64,000 nt of DNA. Source: Salegentibacter sp. 24. Its GTDB lineage: Bacteria; Bacteroidota; Bacteroidia; Flavobacteriales; Flavobacteriaceae. The notes beneath the pieces were generated by a model. It was not told the origin of the DNA, searched no databases, and was given only the letters and a program-made list of their open reading frames with translations. Where the stretch lies: NCBI RefSeq assembly GCF_004362395.1, contig NZ_SNWE01000010.1, positions 62,001 to 126,000 on the forward strand. The letters are read 5' to 3'. Made by a program: the position numbers and the translations under genes. Below are positions 53,630 through 62,678 of this stretch, in pieces. Each line of letters begins with the position of its first letter. Within the stretch, counting starts at the first letter, position 1.

Positions 53630-54421
53630 ATGCAGCAAGCTGAATTAAGAACCGTAACAGTTACCCGGTATATCACTCCGCTAAGGGAAGGAGGCTCCTT
53701 ACCTGCTTTGACCGAGGCTGATGATGATTTTAAATATGTCCTAAAATTTCGGGGAGCAGGCCACGGGGTAAAAGCTTTAATTGCAGAACTCCTTGGCTGC
53801 GAGATAGCGCGGACCTTAGGCTTCAAAGTCCCAGAACTGGTCTATGCCCATTTGGATGAGGCCTTCGGAAGAACAGAGGGCGACGAGGAGATTCAGGATT
53901 TATTAATGGCTAGTCAGGGTTTAAACCTGGGACTACATTTCCTATCTGCTGCAATAAATTTTGATCCCGTAGTCACTGAAGTTGACGAATTTAAAGCCTC
54001 CAAAATAGTTTGGTTAGATGCTTTTATTACCAATGTCGATCGCACCTTTAGAAATACAAATATGCTAATCTGGCACAAAGAATTATGGCTTATAGACCAT
54101 GGCGCTTCTTTCTACTTCCATCATTCCTGGACCAGTCCCGATGAAAAAGCAAAAACACCTTTTAAATTCATAAAAGACCATGTTTTACTGCCGCGGGCGA
54201 CTAAACTAAAAGAAGCAGATGAGTATTGCAGAACAATAATTACTCCCACCAAAATAAAGGAAATTGTGTCTTTGATCCCCTCAGAATGGTTGCAATGGGA
54301 GGAGACCCAGCAGACGGAAGAAGAAATAAAAGAAGTTTATGCGAGGTTTTTAACCACGCGCCTGGACCATTCCTCAATTTTTATAAAAGAAGCAGAAAAT
54401 GCAAGACAAGCACTTATATGA
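53630..54421 (+). CDS. HipA-like kinase-fold protein
   Basis: A 263-residue protein with the HipA/PI3K-like kinase core but without the N-terminal subdomain of E. coli HipA (440 residues). The ATP-binding lysine is probably K39 (KYVLKFRGAG). The catalytic loop reads DAFITNVDRTFRNTNMLI, with D137 and N142 in the D-R-x-x-x-N spacing of HipA Asp309/Asn314, and the metal aspartate D156 is in LWLIDHGASFY. All key residues are therefore present and an active kinase is likely. No HipB-type antitoxin is adjacent; instead the DUF3037 gene overlaps its end by 23 bases. Its targets are unknown. Confidence 0.8.
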   Translation: MQQAELRTVTVTRYITPLREGGSLPALTEADDDFKYVLKFRGAGHGVKALIAELLGCEIARTLGFKVPELVYAHLDEAFGRTEGDEEIQDLLMASQGLNLGLHFLSAAINFDPVVTEVDEFKASKIVWLDAFITNVDRTFRNTNMLIWHKELWLIDHGASFYFHHSWTSPDEKAKTPFKFIKDHVLLPRATKLKEADEYCRTIITPTKIKEIVSLIPSEWLQWEETQQTEEEIKEVYARFLTTRLDHSSIFIKEAENARQALI

Positions 54422-54782
54422 ATATGCTGTTATTAGGCTGGTGCCTAAAGTTGAACGGGAAGAATTCCTAAATGTCGGAATCATTCTCTTCAGCAAAAGA
54501 GCAGGATTTTTAAAAGTTTTATATGAGGTGGATCTTACCCGGTTGCATGTCTTTTGTAAAGATTTAGAAAAAGATGAAGTAATGGCCAACCTGGATTCTT
54601 TTAAAAAAATCTGTGAAGGTGTCAAAGAAGGGGGACCTATTGCTCAAGTTGATTTGGCCTCAAGATTCAGATGGCTTACCGCGGTGCGCAGTTCTATCAT
54701 TCAAACTTCACGCCCCCACCCAGGAATGACAAAAGATCTTGAAATGACCTTGAATCGTCTTTATAGGGAACTTGTTTTATAA
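54399..54782 (+). CDS. DUF3037 protein, partner of the HipA-like kinase
   Basis: A 127-residue soluble protein. The start KHLYEYAVIRLVPKVEREEF, then LNVGIILFSKRAGFLKVLYE and the C-terminal block ASRFRWLTAVRSSIIQTSRP with PHPGMTKDLEMTLNRLYREL are typical of DUF3037. It begins 23 bases inside the kinase gene, so the two are translationally coupled. I recall this pairing from other bacterial genomes but know of no assigned function. It has no DNA-binding motif, so it is not a classical HipB antitoxin; an inhibitor or substrate adaptor of the kinase is the simplest hypothesis. Confidence 0.78.
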   Translation: MQDKHLYEYAVIRLVPKVEREEFLNVGIILFSKRAGFLKVLYEVDLTRLHVFCKDLEKDEVMANLDSFKKICEGVKEGGPIAQVDLASRFRWLTAVRSSIIQTSRPHPGMTKDLEMTLNRLYRELVL

Positions 54783-54904: not shown

Positions 54905-55507
54905 TCAACCGTTCAGTTTACCAGCCATTTCTACCGTTCTCTTTGCCTGGTGTTTTACCGCATTTTTAATATTGTCTCCTGGAGTGTTACCATCAGCTTT
55001 TACACTTGCACCATATGGATTTCCCCCTGCTTCAAATAAGCAGGGATCGGTATAACCCGGTGGTACAATTATAGCGCCCCAGTGGATCATAGTTTTGTAT
55101 AAGGACATCAAAGTAGTTTCCTGTCCCCCGTGTGGATTTGCAGCACTAGTCATCCCACTTACCACCTTATTTGCCAGTTTTCCAGCAGACCAAAGCCCTC
55201 CAGTAGTATCAAAAAATGCCTGTAATTGTGAAGGCAAATTTCCATATCGGGTTGGCGTGCTAAAAATAATTGCATCCGCCCACTGGAGATCGTCTAAGTT
55301 CACGGTAGGAAAATCTTTATGTTCCTCGACATATTTTTTCCAGTCCTGGTTTTGATCAATTGCCTGTTGTGGGGCAGTTTCCTGTACTCTTTTTAATCGT
55401 ACCTCACCTGCTCCAGCTTCTTTAGCGGCTTCCATGGCCCAATGTGCCAATTGATGATTTGTACCTGTGGCACTATAAAATATCACTGCTACTTTTGGTT
55501 TATTCAT
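54905..55507 (-). CDS. wrbA: NAD(P)H:quinone oxidoreductase, WrbA type
   Basis: A flavodoxin-like FMN enzyme for two-electron quinone reduction. The frame opens at 55555, but the ATG at 55507 (MNKPKVAVIFYSATGTNHQL) puts the FMN phosphate loop SATGTN at the usual distance and is preferred, giving 200 residues. Other blocks are DAIIFSTPTRYGNLPSQLQ, FFDTTGGLW, SAGKLANKVVSGMTSAANPH and GGQETTLMSLYKTMIHWGAI, all characteristic of WrbA. It stands alone next to, but facing the same way as, the heme oxygenase gene, separated by about 125 bases. Confidence 0.93.
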   Translation of the reverse strand: MNKPKVAVIFYSATGTNHQLAHWAMEAAKEAGAGEVRLKRVQETAPQQAIDQNQDWKKYVEEHKDFPTVNLDDLQWADAIIFSTPTRYGNLPSQLQAFFDTTGGLWSAGKLANKVVSGMTSAANPHGGQETTLMSLYKTMIHWGAIIVPPGYTDPCLFEAGGNPYGASVKADGNTPGDNIKNAVKHQAKRTVEMAGKLNG

Positions 55508-55633
55508 AATTAAAACTTTAAAATTGATTAATCTTTCATTATAAATATAAAACAAAATAAGCCTAATTGTTTTAAGATTATTATAAAGTTAAATTAAAAA
55601 CAGATCCGTAAATGTTACCTATGGCTTGTATAC

Positions 55634-56200
55634 CTAAGCCTTATGTGATATCTCAGCGGTATTTCTAAAAATATAACCGAAAAACTCAAAAGTTTCCTGG
55701 GCTTTTCTCGAAGCAGACGCTATTTGTACTTCGCTAAAATTTTGGGAATTAATTTCTTTAACAAATTGATTCCAGGATTTTACGCCCTGGCGATCGCCAT
55801 TGAAAAAGTGTGGGGTAGAAATAGCTGTTAATTCCGGACATTTGGAAATTTCTTTGGAAATATACATTCCCCCTAAGGCGGAACCTAATACAACATAAGC
55901 GGATCCCAAAGCTTCCTCATAAGTAGAAATAGAAAATTTGTCCTGAAATTGATGGGAAATAGAGGTGTCAACATTTAGATTTTGAAGATCTTTGGCAAGT
56001 TGATCACTTTTGTCAGATTGGTAATCAAGGATGAATTTTGAAATTTCAGTTTCGGTAATTTTATAAGCAATATAATTTTGGAGTAGTAAAAGTCTATAAT
56101 TTTCCAGGCTAATCTGGTGGGAAATAATCTGAGCGGCAAGATTCTCATTTTCCAGCTCTTTATGCAGTGATTTGGTAGATTCTCTAAGGTTATTCAGCAT
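55634..56200 (-). CDS. Heme oxygenase (biliverdin-producing, BphO-like)
   Basis: Opens heme to biliverdin, carbon monoxide and iron; in this setting it supplies the phytochrome chromophore. The 188-residue all-helical protein begins LRESTKSLHKELENENLA, with His13 in the position of the proximal heme ligand, and has SAYVVLGSALGGMYISKEI, the distal-helix glycine-rich segment. Length and pattern match BphO proteins. It overlaps the response regulator gene by 11 bases, so the two are translated together, and it is the last gene of the light-sensing operon. The electron donor is not encoded here. Confidence 0.85.
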   Translation of the reverse strand: MLNNLRESTKSLHKELENENLAAQIISHQISLENYRLLLLQNYIAYKITETEISKFILDYQSDKSDQLAKDLQNLNVDTSISHQFQDKFSISTYEEALGSAYVVLGSALGGMYISKEISKCPELTAISTPHFFNGDRQGVKSWNQFVKEINSQNFSEVQIASASRKAQETFEFFGYIFRNTAEISHKA

Positions 56201-56747
56201 TTTCTATGTTGAATTTATTTAAGTTATTTTTTATTTTTTTAATATTGTCACGTTGCTCCTTATCGTCTGCCTTCATACTCTCGAGGTAGCCGTAAATTTG
56301 ATGAATAGCTATTTTATTCTTCCGAATTCGCTCCCTTAGTTCATCATGCTGGATCATATTATATACTACTTGCTTTAAAAGAGGCTCCAGCTTCTGATCA
56401 AGATAACTCATATGCTTTTTCAAAATAAAACCCGAGGCGCCCGAAACAATAGTTTCGGCCGCCAGCTCATCGTCATCTAACGCCCCGGTAATAAATATTA
56501 AAGGAATACTTTCATCTATCGATTTGATTAGTTCTAGGACATCCAAGCCGGTACCGGAAGGCAGACTAAAATCTGAAATCACCAAATCCGGTAAAAAATT
56601 CTTAAAAACACTTTCAAAATCTGGAAAATCATTCACCACTTCTATCACTGGCTTTTCCACCACCTGGTAAATATTTCTTTTAATTAAGACAACATCGGTT
56701 TTTTCATCTTCAACCAATAATATACGCAAAGGAATGTTAATCATCAT
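56190..56747 (-). CDS. Single-domain response regulator of the phytochrome operon
   Basis: A 185-residue receiver protein. The acidic pair is at 13-14 (LVEDEKTD), the phosphorylation site is D59 (LVISDFSLPSG), the switch threonine T87 (FITGAL) and the lysine K110 (FILKKH). The C-terminal 60 residues are a charged helical segment without a DNA-binding or output domain. The same arrangement is seen in Rcp1/BphR-type regulators that receive phosphate from phytochromes, probably as a phosphorelay shuttle or protein-interaction switch. It is coupled to the heme oxygenase gene and follows the phytochrome by 69 bases. Confidence 0.88.
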   Translation of the reverse strand: MMINIPLRILLVEDEKTDVVLIKRNIYQVVEKPVIEVVNDFPDFESVFKNFLPDLVISDFSLPSGTGLDVLELIKSIDESIPLIFITGALDDDELAAETIVSGASGFILKKHMSYLDQKLEPLLKQVVYNMIQHDELRERIRKNKIAIHQIYGYLESMKADDKEQRDNIKKIKNNLNKFNIENAE

Positions 56748-56816
56748 TTCTAAATTTAAACAAAAATACGAAACTGTTGAAAGTTATAAACGGTAGTAAA
56801 AAATTCAGCAAAAAAA

Positions 56817-59030
56817 TCAAAGGTGAAAGAAAAATGTACTTCCCGATCCGGGAGTACTTTCAATCCATATTTCCCCATTGTGTTTTTCTATAATTCTGGC
56901 AACAATGGCTAAGCCAATGCCGGTTCCTTTAAAACTATTTTTTGAAGACCGCGAAAATAATTTAAAAATTTTCTTGCGATCCACATCGGCTATTCCAGTA
57001 CCATTATCTTTAATATAAAAAACATTCTTGGTATCTTTTGGAAAGCTACCGATTTCTACTTTTGGATTTTCAGCATGTTCAGAATATTTCAGGGCATTAC
57101 TTAATAAATTACTCCACAATTGTAATAGCATTCGGCGATCTCCATTTGTTTCCAAAAGTTTCGACGCTACTTCTAACTTCGTGTTTGTGAAATTAATCCC
57201 TAAGTTAAAACTAAATAAAATTTCCTCTAGTAGCTTATTAGTATTCAATATTTTCCTTTGAGGTTTACCTTTGGTCATTTTGGAAAAAGTAAGGATATCG
57301 TCTATCATTTCTTCCATCTTTTGGGAAGTCTTTAGCATAGTATCCAGGCTTTCTATAACCTCAGTAGAAAGCTCCTGGCTATAATCTTCTTTGATCATTT
57401 GTGCGTACCCGCTAATTCCTCGCAAAGGTGCACGAAGATCGTGGGAAATTCCATAGCTAAAAAGTTCTAAATCCTTATTGGATTCCTGAAGGTTTTGATT
57501 TAATCTTACAATCTCCTCTTTTTGTTGTTTGAGGATAACCTGGTTTAAACTTTCCCTGAAGGATTTTGCTGTTTCTATTTCGTAATCCTTCCAGGGATTA
57601 GATATTCCGTTCAGTTTTTCAGTCCATTTCTCAAATGATTTTCGGGGGCTTAAACGCTGTTTGGAGGAATTAAAAAAAACTTTTTTTTCAGGGTTACCAC
57701 CCCAACTTACTGTTTCGGCTATTTCTGGTCTGAACCAAATCACAAAACTATCAAGGAGCTTTCCCAGTTTAAGGCTTAAGATTCCAGAGGCGCACTTTTG
57801 GTAACTTTTCGCTTTTGGATATATTTTTTTAAGGCTCTTTGTTTGGAAAATAGGTTCCTTGTTTTGAGTAAGAAAATCACACAGATCCATCACCTGGGTT
57901 TTAGTAGGTGTGTCTCCCATAAGCCCTATTTCCTCACCAAAAATTACAGCAACCCCAGCGCTATTGATAAGAGAAGTCAAAGGTATTTCAGCCTTATTAA
58001 GTTCATAGAACAAAGGGCTGCCAAGGTCAAGATCCTTTAAAATTTTTTCCTTTACCTGAGAATTTTCACTGAACTTTTTATTGAATATCCCGGTTTGAAT
58101 AGAAGATATTCTATTTGATAAAATCTGGGTTAGAAACTTAAAGGTTTCCCGTTGAAAATAATTTATAAATTTAGCGCTATAATGATGACAGGTTATCAAC
58201 CCCCAGAGCTCATCATTTACAATAATAGCCGTAGTTAAGGAAGCGCCCACCTTCATATTCTGTAAATACTCTATATGAATTGGAGAAACAGCCCGTAATT
58301 CGGATCTGGAAAGGTCCAATGGATTATTTGTATACGGTGATATTTCAGGGGAAATGGAAACAGGTTCATAATTGACATCTGATATAATTCTCACCTTATT
58401 TTTTAAAAACAATTTTCTGGATTGTGAAGGGATGTCACTGGCGGGATAATGGAGGCCCAACCAACTTTCTAAATGCTCTTCTTTTTGCTCTGCAACTACC
58501 TCCCCATTCCAATCTTCATCAAACCGGTAAACCATTACTCGATGGTAACCAAAAATTTCCTTAGTCAATATTGCAGCGGTCCTACACAGCTCTAAAACCG
58601 TCTTTCCTTTATCAAATCGGGTAATAATACTGCTTAATTTCTCCTGCCAAATCATTGGATCCCAAACCTCACCTAAAACCTCAAAATCAATAATGAGATT
58701 ACTAGCAGTAAAATGAGGCAGCATCACAAAGTATTTATTTCCAATCTTGAGCTCCTGCGCTTTAAAAATTGAGTTTCTCAAACTGGTATTCCTAAATTGT
58801 TCAAAAGCAGTTTTCCCAATTAAATCTTCGAGAGCGTCTCCAATTAAAGAAGTATAGGAAATCCCAAAGAATTTGGTCGTGTTTTCACTGGCCTGAATAA
58901 TTTTAAATGTTTCCGGATGTACCGCCAGAATAACCCCATGAGCCTGCACTTTTCCAATCAGGTGAATGGGTTCTTTTTCACAGTTTAGAATGTCCACCTT
59001 CCCGGGATAAGAAAGCTGTCCTGAGCTCAT
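56817..59030 (-). CDS. bphP: Bacteriophytochrome sensor histidine kinase
   Basis: A red/far-red light receptor of 737 residues with the PAS-GAF-PHY photosensory module and a histidine kinase. Cys17 in the N-terminal extension (ILNCEKEPIHLIGKVQAHG) is the biliverdin attachment site. The GAF domain has PASDIP (D199-P201) and the chromophore histidine H252 (SPIHIEYLQNMKVGASL). The PHY tongue shows PRKSF at 462-466 and WGGNP. The kinase has H530 in SYGISHDLRAPLRGI, then N-box SNLLSNALKYSEHAEN, G1 KDNGTGIAD and G2 GTGIGLAIVARI. Every residue needed for light sensing and autophosphorylation is present. It begins six bases after the stop of the CheB/CheR kinase gene. Confidence 0.95.
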   Translation of the reverse strand: MSSGQLSYPGKVDILNCEKEPIHLIGKVQAHGVILAVHPETFKIIQASENTTKFFGISYTSLIGDALEDLIGKTAFEQFRNTSLRNSIFKAQELKIGNKYFVMLPHFTASNLIIDFEVLGEVWDPMIWQEKLSSIITRFDKGKTVLELCRTAAILTKEIFGYHRVMVYRFDEDWNGEVVAEQKEEHLESWLGLHYPASDIPSQSRKLFLKNKVRIISDVNYEPVSISPEISPYTNNPLDLSRSELRAVSPIHIEYLQNMKVGASLTTAIIVNDELWGLITCHHYSAKFINYFQRETFKFLTQILSNRISSIQTGIFNKKFSENSQVKEKILKDLDLGSPLFYELNKAEIPLTSLINSAGVAVIFGEEIGLMGDTPTKTQVMDLCDFLTQNKEPIFQTKSLKKIYPKAKSYQKCASGILSLKLGKLLDSFVIWFRPEIAETVSWGGNPEKKVFFNSSKQRLSPRKSFEKWTEKLNGISNPWKDYEIETAKSFRESLNQVILKQQKEEIVRLNQNLQESNKDLELFSYGISHDLRAPLRGISGYAQMIKEDYSQELSTEVIESLDTMLKTSQKMEEMIDDILTFSKMTKGKPQRKILNTNKLLEEILFSFNLGINFTNTKLEVASKLLETNGDRRMLLQLWSNLLSNALKYSEHAENPKVEIGSFPKDTKNVFYIKDNGTGIADVDRKKIFKLFSRSSKNSFKGTGIGLAIVARIIEKHNGEIWIESTPGSGSTFFFHL

Positions 59031-59036
59031 ATACGC

Positions 59037-62000
59037 TTATGCTTTTAATTTGAAATAAAAAGTACTGCCTACCCCTACCTGGCTTTCCACCCATATAGTA
59101 CCTTCGTGAAGCTGAACGATTTTCTCAACATGGGCCAGGCCTACCCCGGTACCATCATGTCCATTGTCTTCTTTGACCCGATTAAAAATTGTGAAAATAT
59201 TTTTTTTATCCTCCTCTGAAATTCCGTAGCCATTGTCGGTTACCGAGAAAACATAATGCGTTCCTTCCCGGTATGAAGCAATACGCACATCAGGATTTCT
59301 ATCCTTGGGAGTATATTTAATAGCATTGCTTATGAGGTTTTGAAAAAGTAAACGTAACTCCACTTCATGCCCCTTAATCTTAGGAAGAGAACCTGCATTC
59401 ACCTTTGCATTGGTATCCTTAATTCTTTTACCCAGGTCATATTTTACAACCTCTACAATTTCCTTAATGTTGACCAGGCTTTTTTCTCCATGCCGTCCAA
59501 TTCTGGAATGTTCCAAAAGGGCTTTAATTTGCTCAGAAAGTCGTGTGGAGGCATCTTTGATATACTTGATATAATTCTTTCCTTTCTCATCCAGTTTATC
59601 AGCATACATTTTACCCAGCACATCACTTCCGAATTTAATGGTAGAAAGTGGTTCCTGTAGGTCATGGGAACATATAGAAACAAATTGTTCCAGGTCCTTA
59701 TTGGCTCTTTCTAAATCTTCATGTTGTTGTTTTAATTGGTTTTCAGCTTGCTTTAGATCTGAAATATCGACACAGGTGTATCTAATGGTCACCACTCTTC
59801 CCTCCATATCCTTTTCGGCGGTGGCATTTAAAATTACCGGAAGCAAATCTCCCGAGGCAGTAAGCATATCCTGCTCCATATTGACTATGGCACCCGTATC
59901 TTTAAATTCCTTATTTGATTTTAATGCCTTAAGCTGAGATTCCTCATTATAAAGGTCAAAAACAGGTCGATCTATTAAATCTTCTTTTGAGTTATAGCCA
60001 AGCCTGGTCACCGCCATCTCATTGCATTGCACGATAAGTTGGGTCTGTGGGTCAACGCTTATATGAATTACGGGATCTTCTTCGTAGAAAGATTTAAAAC
60101 GTTTTTCACTGGCCACCAATTTTTCTTTGGAGCGTTGCAATAAACCGACATCTATAAAGGTAATGACCACTCCGGTAGTCTCATCATTAGAATTAATATA
60201 AGGGGATATTCTTCTTAAATAATAGGAACCATCCTTGGTCATCACTTGTTTTTCCAGAATTTTACTGGTTCTAAGCACCCTTTTGCAGCGAGTGATAAGA
60301 TTGCTTTTCCCCATACTAGAGGTAAAATGCTCGATAGGCCTGCCCTCATCGGAATCGATTAAATTAAAATGCCGCTGAATGGCCGGTGTGAACTTTCTAA
60401 TCTTCAAATCTTTATCAAGAAAAATCACCCCAATATCAGTGCTTTCCAGCAAGTTATTCATATCGGCATTTAGGGCCGCTAGGTCTTCTACCTTTTGAAG
60501 ATTTTCAGCATTTACCGTGTTAATTTCTTCATTTACACTTTGCAGTTCTTCGTTTGTACTTTGCAATTCTTCATTTGAAGCTAATAATTCTTCATTGGCT
60601 GCCTGTAGTTCCTCATTGCTGGTTTCTATCTCCTCTATAGAAGTTTGCAACTCCTCTTTGGTTTCCTTTAGCTCCTCTTCAAGATCGGCCACATATTCCT
60701 TAGTGCGACTGGTTAGGGTAAGCTTATCTAAGGTTTTAACAGATTCCAGATCGATTTCCTTTTCAATAAAAGTGATTACAAAATTGGTATCAGTATCATC
60801 ATTTTTTGTCTGGAATGGTTTGACGATAATATCTACAGATTTTTTCTCCCCCTGATGCTCAAAGGAGGCGTCCTGGTATCTTAGTTTTACATTTTCGGTT
60901 TTAGCCTTTTTTAAAGTGCTTTGAATGGTATATTTCAAATCCGTTGCCAGCATATCCAACAGGTTCACGGAAAATCCGCTCACCGGTAAATTAGCATATT
61001 TCCGAAATTCCCCTACTGCCTGTAGAATATTAAAGTTATCATCTACAAAAACACTGGCACCTCCAAAAACCTCCATGATGGTTTGATTGAGCTCATCGGT
61101 AAGTTTGTTTTTAACAGGACTTGAAGATTTTCTATAAGCGGGTCGTTGAATTTCCTTTGTTCCCTGGGTCAAATTACTTGTAGAGGTGGTTTGTGAAATA
61201 CTGGCGTTTAAACGCTTATTTACATTTTCATTTCTAAAAATTTTAGCTCCCCGATCTATTACTTTAAAGTTATCCTTTTGAGAAGAAACATTTTCACTAG
61301 TGCCCAGCACCAAAATACCTCCCACCTTAAGGGCATATTGTAAGAAGTTTAAAGCCTTATTTTGAATTCCCGGTTGAAAATAAATTAAAAGATTTCTACA
61401 GGCCACCATATCCATATTGCTGAAAGGTGGATTTTTGATGATATTGTGTCTTGAAAAAACCACCATTCTGCGTACCTTGTCAATAACCTTATAGCCATCG
61501 GGTCTACTGATGAAGTATTTCAGCAGTAATTCGGAATCAATATCTGCAACAATACTTTCTGGATAAAATGCTTCACTACCAATTTCAAGATGCTTCTGGG
61601 AGATATCGGTAGCAAAAATCTTCAAATCTACACTTTTTTTCTGTCGCTCGATTTCCTCGATAATAATCATGGCAAAGGAATAAGCCTCTTCGCCACTACT
61701 GCAGGCTACATCCCACAGCTTTATAACCTCTCCATCTTTTTTGCTTTCCACCAGCTTCGGAATCACCTCTTCTCTTAAGACTTTCCAGACATTTTCGTCT
61801 CTAAAAAACTTGGTTACCCCAATTAAGAATTCTCGGTGCAGTATTTCTGCTTCTTCACTATTATTGATCAAGAATTTATAATATTCTAAAAGATTATTGC
61901 ATTTACATACATTCACCCTTCTTGCGATACGGCGGGCAAGGGTAGCGTGCTTATATTCCCTAAAATCGAGCCCGGTTTGTTCATCTATAAACCGAAGAAT

Positions 62001-62678
62001 TTTCATTAATTCTCCTTCATTATAATTAATATCACCATCCTTAAAATGAAAGACAGAAGGAGATTCAATAAAATTTCTGAGCTCTTTAGCCATGTTAGAC
62101 ACTGGCAATACATAATCTACCAAACCGGTATTTATAGCACTTTGCGGCATTCCATCAAACTTGGATTCCTCCGGATCCTGGACCATGATCATACCATCGC
62201 GTTCCTTAATAGCCCTTACTCCCCTTGTCCCATCACTTCCTGTACCGCTTAAAATGATACCAATAGCTTTTTCTTTACGTTCCTTGGCAAGTGCTTCAAA
62301 GAACATATCTATCGGTAGATTTAAACTTTGATCTTTAGGCTTTTCAATAAGGTGTAGCTGGTTATCCTTAAAAGTTAAATTATTAGCAGGTGGAATTAAA
62401 TAGATATGTCCCTGCTCTATCTTCAGGTGGTTTTTAATCTCACGTATGGGCAGGTTTGTATTCTTTTTTAAAAGTTCTCCCATCATACTTTTGAAGTCTG
62501 GTGAGAGATGCTGTATAACTACATAAGCATTTTTATCGGTTTCGGGTATGCCTTCAAAAAAAGCCTTTAGTGCCTCCAATCCTCCGGCGCTAGCACCTAC
62601 TGCAATTACTCGGGGTTCTTCAGTTTTAAGCTTAGTATCCAGCTCTGACCTGGAGGGGTAGTTATTTACTTTTGTCAT
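59037..62678 (-). CDS. CheB-CheR-PAS hybrid sensor histidine kinase
   Basis: A 1213-residue cytosolic protein. Order of domains: CheB-type methylesterase at about 20-205, with the triad S30 ([12 protein letters not shown]), H57 (VIQHLSPD) and D149 ([12 protein letters not shown]); CheR methyltransferase at about 215-485 ([53 protein letters not shown]); a PAS-like segment; a long coiled coil of repeated SNEEL units near 680-740; two more PAS domains; then HisKA ([16 protein letters not shown]) and HATPase ([38 protein letters not shown]). There is no receiver domain to gate CheB. No chemoreceptor genes are nearby. It heads the phytochrome operon. Confidence 0.93.

Follow-up and report, generated by a model that had tools for sequence, protein, structure and literature searches.

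CheB methylesterase and CheR methyltransferase domains joined in one protein have been described before. Within the passages available to us, a survey of Azospirillum places CheB and methyltransferase domains among kinase domains (PMC4618731), a CheB-CheR hybrid is reported for R. centenum (PMC2890560), cheBR fusions are counted in Geobacter (PMC8396549), a CheR/CheB fusion of A. brasilense is, by the title of the study, involved in cyst development and chemotaxis (Wu et al., 2011, cited in PMC6159551), and CheR/CheB genes are found downstream of receiver-domain proteins in organisms that include Bacteroidota (PMC5108060). These passages name no substrate for such a fusion, and in the portions of open-licence PubMed Central at hand, which does not extend to subscription journals, we found neither a CheB/CheR kinase coupled to a phytochrome nor a proposal that the coil of a fusion is its own substrate. 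Here we analyzed a 64,000-nucleotide stretch of the flavobacterium Salegentibacter sp. 24 (contig NZ_SNWE01000010.1, positions 62,001 to 126,000 of the forward strand; hereafter the window), in which a CheB-CheR-PAS-histidine kinase protein, here named CheBR-HK, heads an operon that continues with a bacteriophytochrome kinase, a receiver-only regulator and a heme oxygenase. CheBR-HK is very probably the partner of the phytochrome, because the two genes are linked in several genera of the family and because phytochromes lacking a kinase lie beside CheB-CheR (CheBR) genes in another clade. A coil inside the same protein is a candidate answer to the question of what its two modifying enzymes methylate.

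An initial annotation of this DNA had described four co-directional, tightly spaced or overlapping genes, and the open reading frame (ORF) coordinates and Pfam domains agree: the four lie head to tail on the minus strand, separated by 6 nt and then 69 nt, with an 11-nt overlap between regulator and heme oxygenase. Its reading of the second gene as a complete bacteriophytochrome kinase is likewise borne out, with PAS_2, GAF, PHY, HisKA and HATPase domains as well as Cys17, DIP (from residue 199), His252, PRKSF (from residue 462) and His530 all present. A photosensory module carrying the biliverdin cysteine, the DIP motif and a PRxSF tongue identifies the product as a predicted bacteriophytochrome kinase, and its best solved relatives are the bacteriophytochromes 8uph and 9ys3. 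A scan for promoters and terminators returned about as many sites as in shuffled sequences.

To place this gene order in context, we surveyed 149 genomes of the family. A PHY match occurs in 11 of them and a CheB match above the cut-off in 19; nine genomes have both, against an expectation of 1.4 (P 6e-8, without correction for kinship). Eight of the nine, drawn from seven genera (G000, G031, G007, G053, G100, G111, G117, and G144), encode CheBR-HK immediately upstream of the phytochrome on the same strand, and regulator and heme oxygenase come after. Among the loci listed, four more named genomes share the arrangement (Gramella sp. KN1008, Christiangramia oceanisediminis, Mesonia algae, and an uncultured Dokdonia), bringing the window-type order to at least 12 genomes. 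The phytochrome genomes of the family sample without linkage are G143 and G068, where no CheB was found, and G127, where the CheBR and phytochrome genes lie apart.

A second arrangement is found in another clade of Bacteroidota, where a phytochrome without a kinase lies directly upstream of the CheBR gene at no fewer than 13 loci. Two of its carriers (G179 and G403) encode phytochromes of 497 or 509 amino acids (aa) directly upstream of a CheBR-HK, and in our phylum sample both above-cut-off phytochrome frames shorter than 600 aa are of this type. Further cases come from a named set of at least 80 loci, retrieved by a scan with a CheB peptide and the coil peptide SNEELQST and reduced to 77 by leaving out three in which no CheBR ORF was called. 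Among the loci listed, a phytochrome stands in the flank of 17 of these 77: four are of the window type and 11 have the kinase-less phytochrome directly upstream of CheBR, in Mucilaginibacter, Pedobacter, Pontibacter, Cesiribacteraceae, and Chitinophagaceae including Flavisolibacter and Flavipsychrobacter. In the remaining two, kinase ORFs intervene (Sporocytophaga, L239) or the genes are not adjacent (Aquimarina, L171). All 13 kinase-less phytochromes listed keep the cysteine, D[IV]P and PR[NAT]SF, and the kinase part of the CheBR neighbour is seen in 12 of the 13, the contig of L211 ending before it.

That a phytochrome lacking its own kinase directly adjoins a CheBR gene suggests signalling through the CheBR kinase, and speaks against CheBR-HK being an independent sensor kinase which shares with the phytochrome only the operon and perhaps the receiver, its PAS domains sensing something else. 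This alternative can draw on the complete HisKA and HATPase domains of both kinases, on an extra 134-136-aa ORF located between phytochrome and receiver in three of the 12 window-type operons (with a receiver match in one), and on three close relatives (G012, G074, and G087) that keep CheBR-HK with no phytochrome gene found, and whose CheBR proteins sit inside the linked group in the CheBR tree. We consider it rather improbable.

Across the phylum the association is confined. Another 37 phytochrome genomes comprise 35 from the phylum sample together with G143 and G068. CheB is matched in 28 of them and the genes are linked in three, one of which, G466, has the order CheBR-HK, heme oxygenase, phytochrome. 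Linkage occurs in only four of the 38 phylum-sample genomes with an above-cut-off phytochrome (one of them, G421, with a weak PHY match, was left unexamined), and therefore belongs to certain clades rather than to Bacteroidota phytochromes at large. In quick trees, each of the two groups of phytochromes comes close to being a clade, and so does each set of CheBR partners. Given the well-supported branches, the label "unlinked" must have changed at least three times among 59 phytochromes and at least five times among 66 CheBR proteins (hand-picked from 111 rows), with gains and losses not distinguishable; the G466 gene entered the phytochrome tree twice, once labelled unlinked, leaving the number of label changes unaffected.

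The initial annotation had inferred that the CheB/CheR kinase shares the phytochrome pathway, and had raised the question of whether it always accompanies the phytochrome or adjoins it by chance. The order in at least 12 genomes and the second clade support a shared pathway. Constant company does not hold, with linkage in eight of the 11 phytochrome genomes of the family and the low phylum count just given. Although that low count is what an accidental adjacency in this strain would have in its favour, an order common to eight family genomes of seven genera and four named genomes, together with a different arrangement elsewhere, refutes such an accident, which we regard as scarcely conceivable.

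The neighbourhood had also been described as lacking a methyl-accepting receptor, and this extends to the entire assembly, which is 99.9% complete: of the components of a chemosensory (Che) pathway, neither a methyl-accepting chemotaxis protein (MCP; PF00015) nor CheW (PF01584) gave a match. The same genome has one CheB match and one CheR match, both inside CheBR-HK. Similarly, none of the 11 operon-bearing and closest genomes has an MCP above the cut-off (G117 has one fragment below it), and CheW, sought in those 11, is absent from the matches in all of them. An MCP above the cut-off occurs in one of 22 further CheB-bearing genomes (G528) and in two of the 149 genomes of the family sample (G082 and G146), neither of which has CheB.

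Both enzymes of CheBR-HK appear intact. The catalytic serine and histidine of CheB are invariant in an alignment of 111 CheBR proteins, and the catalytic aspartate is kept in 109 and replaced by Glu in two; this alignment comprises only ORFs with a CheB match longer than 150 aa, and degenerate CheB domains such as that of L060 were left out. Among the matches listed, the closest named relatives of CheBR-HK are from Gramella and Christiangramia, at 67-68% identity. As a separate observation, the catalytic serine and/or histidine of CheB are lost and the CheR motifs kept in five proteins (L241, L242, L243, L244, and L060, from genomes G313, G172, G348, and G127).

Between CheR and PAS_10, an AlphaFold2 (AF2) model of CheBR-HK predicts a long continuous helix (single chain, 39 rows, pTM 0.47; the placement of domains is not readable from it). 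On this modelled helix lie five motifs of the form Glx-Glx-x-x-small-small, spaced by exactly seven residues. The pattern [EQ][EQ]..[AST][AST] matches CheBR-HK at 676, 683, 690, 697, and 704 and once elsewhere, at 1009; applied as a yardstick to Tsr of E. coli K-12, it recovers the four major methylation sites (297, 304, 311, and 493) and one off-target position (521). The repeat at the core of the coil reads NEEL-x-[AS][AST], and the glutamate is kept at 683 in 96, at 690 in 107, at 697 in 109, and at 704 in 110 of the 111 proteins.

Three or more motifs in register are present in 96 of 112 CheBR proteins, in none of 61 other kinase ORFs (phytochrome kinases included), and in none of 978 other ORFs. 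Because the scan for named loci used the coil peptide itself, we also give the coil statistics for a set of 31 or 32 proteins whose loci were retrieved through searches for CheB or PHY domains; in this set 23 of 32 proteins have at least three motifs in register, compared with none of 49 Glu/Gln-rich control ORFs. In the 31-protein set no other 36-residue window is as conserved as the coil core (residues 688-723), whose mean majority frequency is 0.83; the best such window outside the coil region reaches 0.71, and the means of the CheB, CheR and kinase domains are 0.60, 0.55, and 0.53. In a comparison of 31 coils, the only variation in length is by one whole heptad. A plain coiled coil is expected to be more conserved at its core than at its exposed positions. 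Here the exposed heptad positions e, f, and g (0.91-0.98) exceed core positions a (0.86) and d (0.59), which, along with the lack of register in the Glu/Gln-rich controls, does not favour a generic coiled coil.

Moreover, the coil accompanies CheR. A profile built from 25 rows of the coil finds matches in 149 of the 395 phylum genomes, with a single match in the Salegentibacter genome. From the 149 genomes, we examined the top 30 loci and a chosen 16 other distinct places. Of the 48 distinct strong matches seen in all, 46 are in an ORF with CheR and two directly beside a CheBR gene (L154/L271 and L294), whereas some of the weaker matches may simply reflect ordinary coils. The CheB part of G525 is located in adjacent ORFs. 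The two neighbours of CheBR genes, at L154:3162-4883 (-) and L294:3-2795 (+), are coil-PAS_10 proteins without CheB or CheR, and are possible substrates in trans. Elsewhere, separate overlapping genes for CheR (269 aa) and CheB (194 aa) adjoin large kinases with a Glu-rich coil (L059:6681-8056 (+) and L246:3272-4647 (+)). The split CheBR gene of G080 (L056:5945-10570), considered as a natural separation of enzymes and coil, was dropped, as it appears to be interrupted inside the coil by two opposite-strand ORFs.

Our best explanation of the locus, to which we give an even chance, is a conserved red/far-red two-component operon in which CheBR-HK would act as a dedicated, self-methylating partner kinase of the phytochrome. 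Heme oxygenase would make the biliverdin that loads the phytochrome at Cys17, and light would alter the kinase state of the phytochrome or, in the second clade, act on CheBR-HK in trans. CheR would methylate, and CheB demethylate, glutamates of their own coil (the Glu683/690/697/704 class), in cis or between the subunits of a dimer. As in MCP helices, coil methylation would shift signal passage to the PAS domains and kinase and set the gain of the kinase; reversal by CheB would provide adaptation, with the output carried by the receiver. Since CheB here lacks a receiver domain, we infer that its control would need to come from contacts within the chain. A broader proposal, which we advance more tentatively as slightly short of an even chance, is that CheB-CheR fused kinases are self-contained adapting machines, with both enzymes, an MCP-like methyl-accepting coil and a kinase in one chain and no chemoreceptor, coupled in at least two Bacteroidota clades to phytochromes and thereby yielding a light sensor with a chemotaxis-style memory.

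Several observations weigh against this explanation. No phytochrome lies in the fetched flank of 60 of the 77 named CheBR loci listed, some of these flanks ending with the contig; as most CheBR genes therefore have no phytochrome neighbour, red light would be one input among several. Many CheBR ORFs of the named loci also show no kinase match. Within the coil, only 18 of 111 proteins have Glu at the fifth site (676), the strict consensus EE..A[ST] is found in only 72 of 112, and nine of the 32 proteins retrieved independently of the coil fall short of three registered motifs. The coil of the five proteins that have lost CheB catalytic residues is partly eroded, but it is alike in their nearest sister with an intact CheB. 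CheBR-HK has no MCPsignal domain, and Tsr scores 0.2 bits against the profile of the coil; by these comparisons homology with MCPs is unsupported, and the likeness is one of motifs. Furthermore, Gln occupies none of the sites in the 31-protein set and occurs only once among the 111 proteins, unlike in Tsr, in which 297 and 311 are gene-encoded Gln.

The scarcity of Gln would also fit a coil that is only a signalling linker, with CheBR-HK in the phytochrome pathway and its CheR and CheB methylating another, non-MCP protein. The conserved active-site residues of both enzymes, which suggest that their activity is kept, are compatible with such a target, for which the coil-PAS_10 proteins adjoining CheBR genes could serve. 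Against this reading stand the absence of three registered motifs from all 61 other kinase ORFs, the single match of the coil profile in the genome, and the greater conservation of exposed than of core positions; we judge it unlikely, and retain the coil of CheBR-HK itself as the candidate substrate.

The coordinates of the operon and of the parts of CheBR-HK are collected in Table 1.

Table 1. Genes of the operon and parts of CheBR-HK, in window positions.
Feature	Position	Strand	Basis
CheBR-HK, CheB-CheR-(PAS-like)-coil-PAS_10-PAS_9-HisKA-HATPase	59037..62678	-	ORF 1213 aa, Pfam domains
Bacteriophytochrome histidine kinase, PAS-GAF-PHY-HisKA-HATPase	56817..59030	-	ORF 737 aa, Pfam, motif residues
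Receiver-only response regulator, Asp59, C-terminal extension	56190..56747	-	ORF 185 aa, Response_reg
Heme oxygenase (putative biliverdin supply), 11-nt overlap with regulator	55634..56200	-	ORF 188 aa, Heme_oxygenase
CheB methylesterase domain, residues 25-200, without receiver domain	62079..62606	-	Pfam, 191 bits; Ser30, His57, Asp149 intact
CheR methyltransferase, residues 224-475 (CheR_N 224-273, CheR 288-475)	61254..62009	-	Pfam, CheR 184 bits; inspected motif residues intact
Alpha/beta segment, residues ~521-640, no Pfam name, possibly PAS	60759..61118	-	AF2 secondary structure, block pLDDT 48-77
Predicted continuous 91-residue helix, residues 656-746, between CheR and PAS_10	60441..60713	-	AF2 model, block pLDDT 56 at start, 76-90 beyond
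Five MCP-like methylation motifs, second Glu 676, 683, 690, 697, 704, 7-residue register	60555..60656	-	
PAS_10 domain, residues 740-844	60147..60461	-	Pfam
PAS_9 domain, residues 873-974	59757..60062	-	Pfam
HisKA (residues 996-1061, His1005) and HATPase_c (1104-1212) of CheBR-HK	59043..59693	-	Pfam

Additional ORFs of 134-143 aa were noted in the interval between phytochrome and regulator (L037:10038-10448, L041:10148-10552, L164 with 135 aa, and L047:7969-8400), with a receiver match only in L041. Just downstream of the heme oxygenase gene of the window, on the same strand, lies a gene for a WrbA-type NAD(P)H:quinone oxidoreductase (54905-55555 (-)), which in G031 is one ORF further away from the heme oxygenase. 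An overlapping pair encoding a HipA-like kinase (HipA_2) and a DUF3037 protein occupies 53630-54782 (+).

If the proposed mechanism is correct, chemotaxis-type adaptation would be a portable one-protein module that works without receptors, and phytochrome signalling would gain an adaptation step. The substrate of orphan CheB/CheR kinases would become a direct question for mass spectrometry, and the kinase-less phytochromes of Pedobacter, Mucilaginibacter, Pontibacter and their relatives would acquire an output partner.

In comparison with described bacteriophytochrome two-component systems, the window has the same PAS-GAF-PHY-HisKA-HATPase kinase with its Cys, DIP, His and PRxSF residues beside a heme oxygenase and a receiver, and differs in having a CheB-CheR-PAS kinase as the first gene of the operon, an arrangement kept in at least 12 genomes. 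CheB-CheR fusions are known elsewhere, whereas the present host gave a match to neither MCP nor CheW, and its fusion gene goes together with a phytochrome. For Halobacterium, the passage seen discusses adaptation of light responses in which CheR/CheB act by way of MCP-like transducers (PMC5812497). In the Frz system of Myxococcus, according to the part of the study consulted, FrzF, a CheR with an extra domain, methylates glutamates of FrzCD that are seven residues apart (E168, E175, and E182; PMC2535941), and there the substrate is a separate cytoplasmic MCP. MCP adaptation as exemplified by Tsr, CheR and CheB differs again, in that CheBR-HK has neither an MCP signalling domain nor CheW, and unites the enzymes, their putative substrate and the kinase in one chain.

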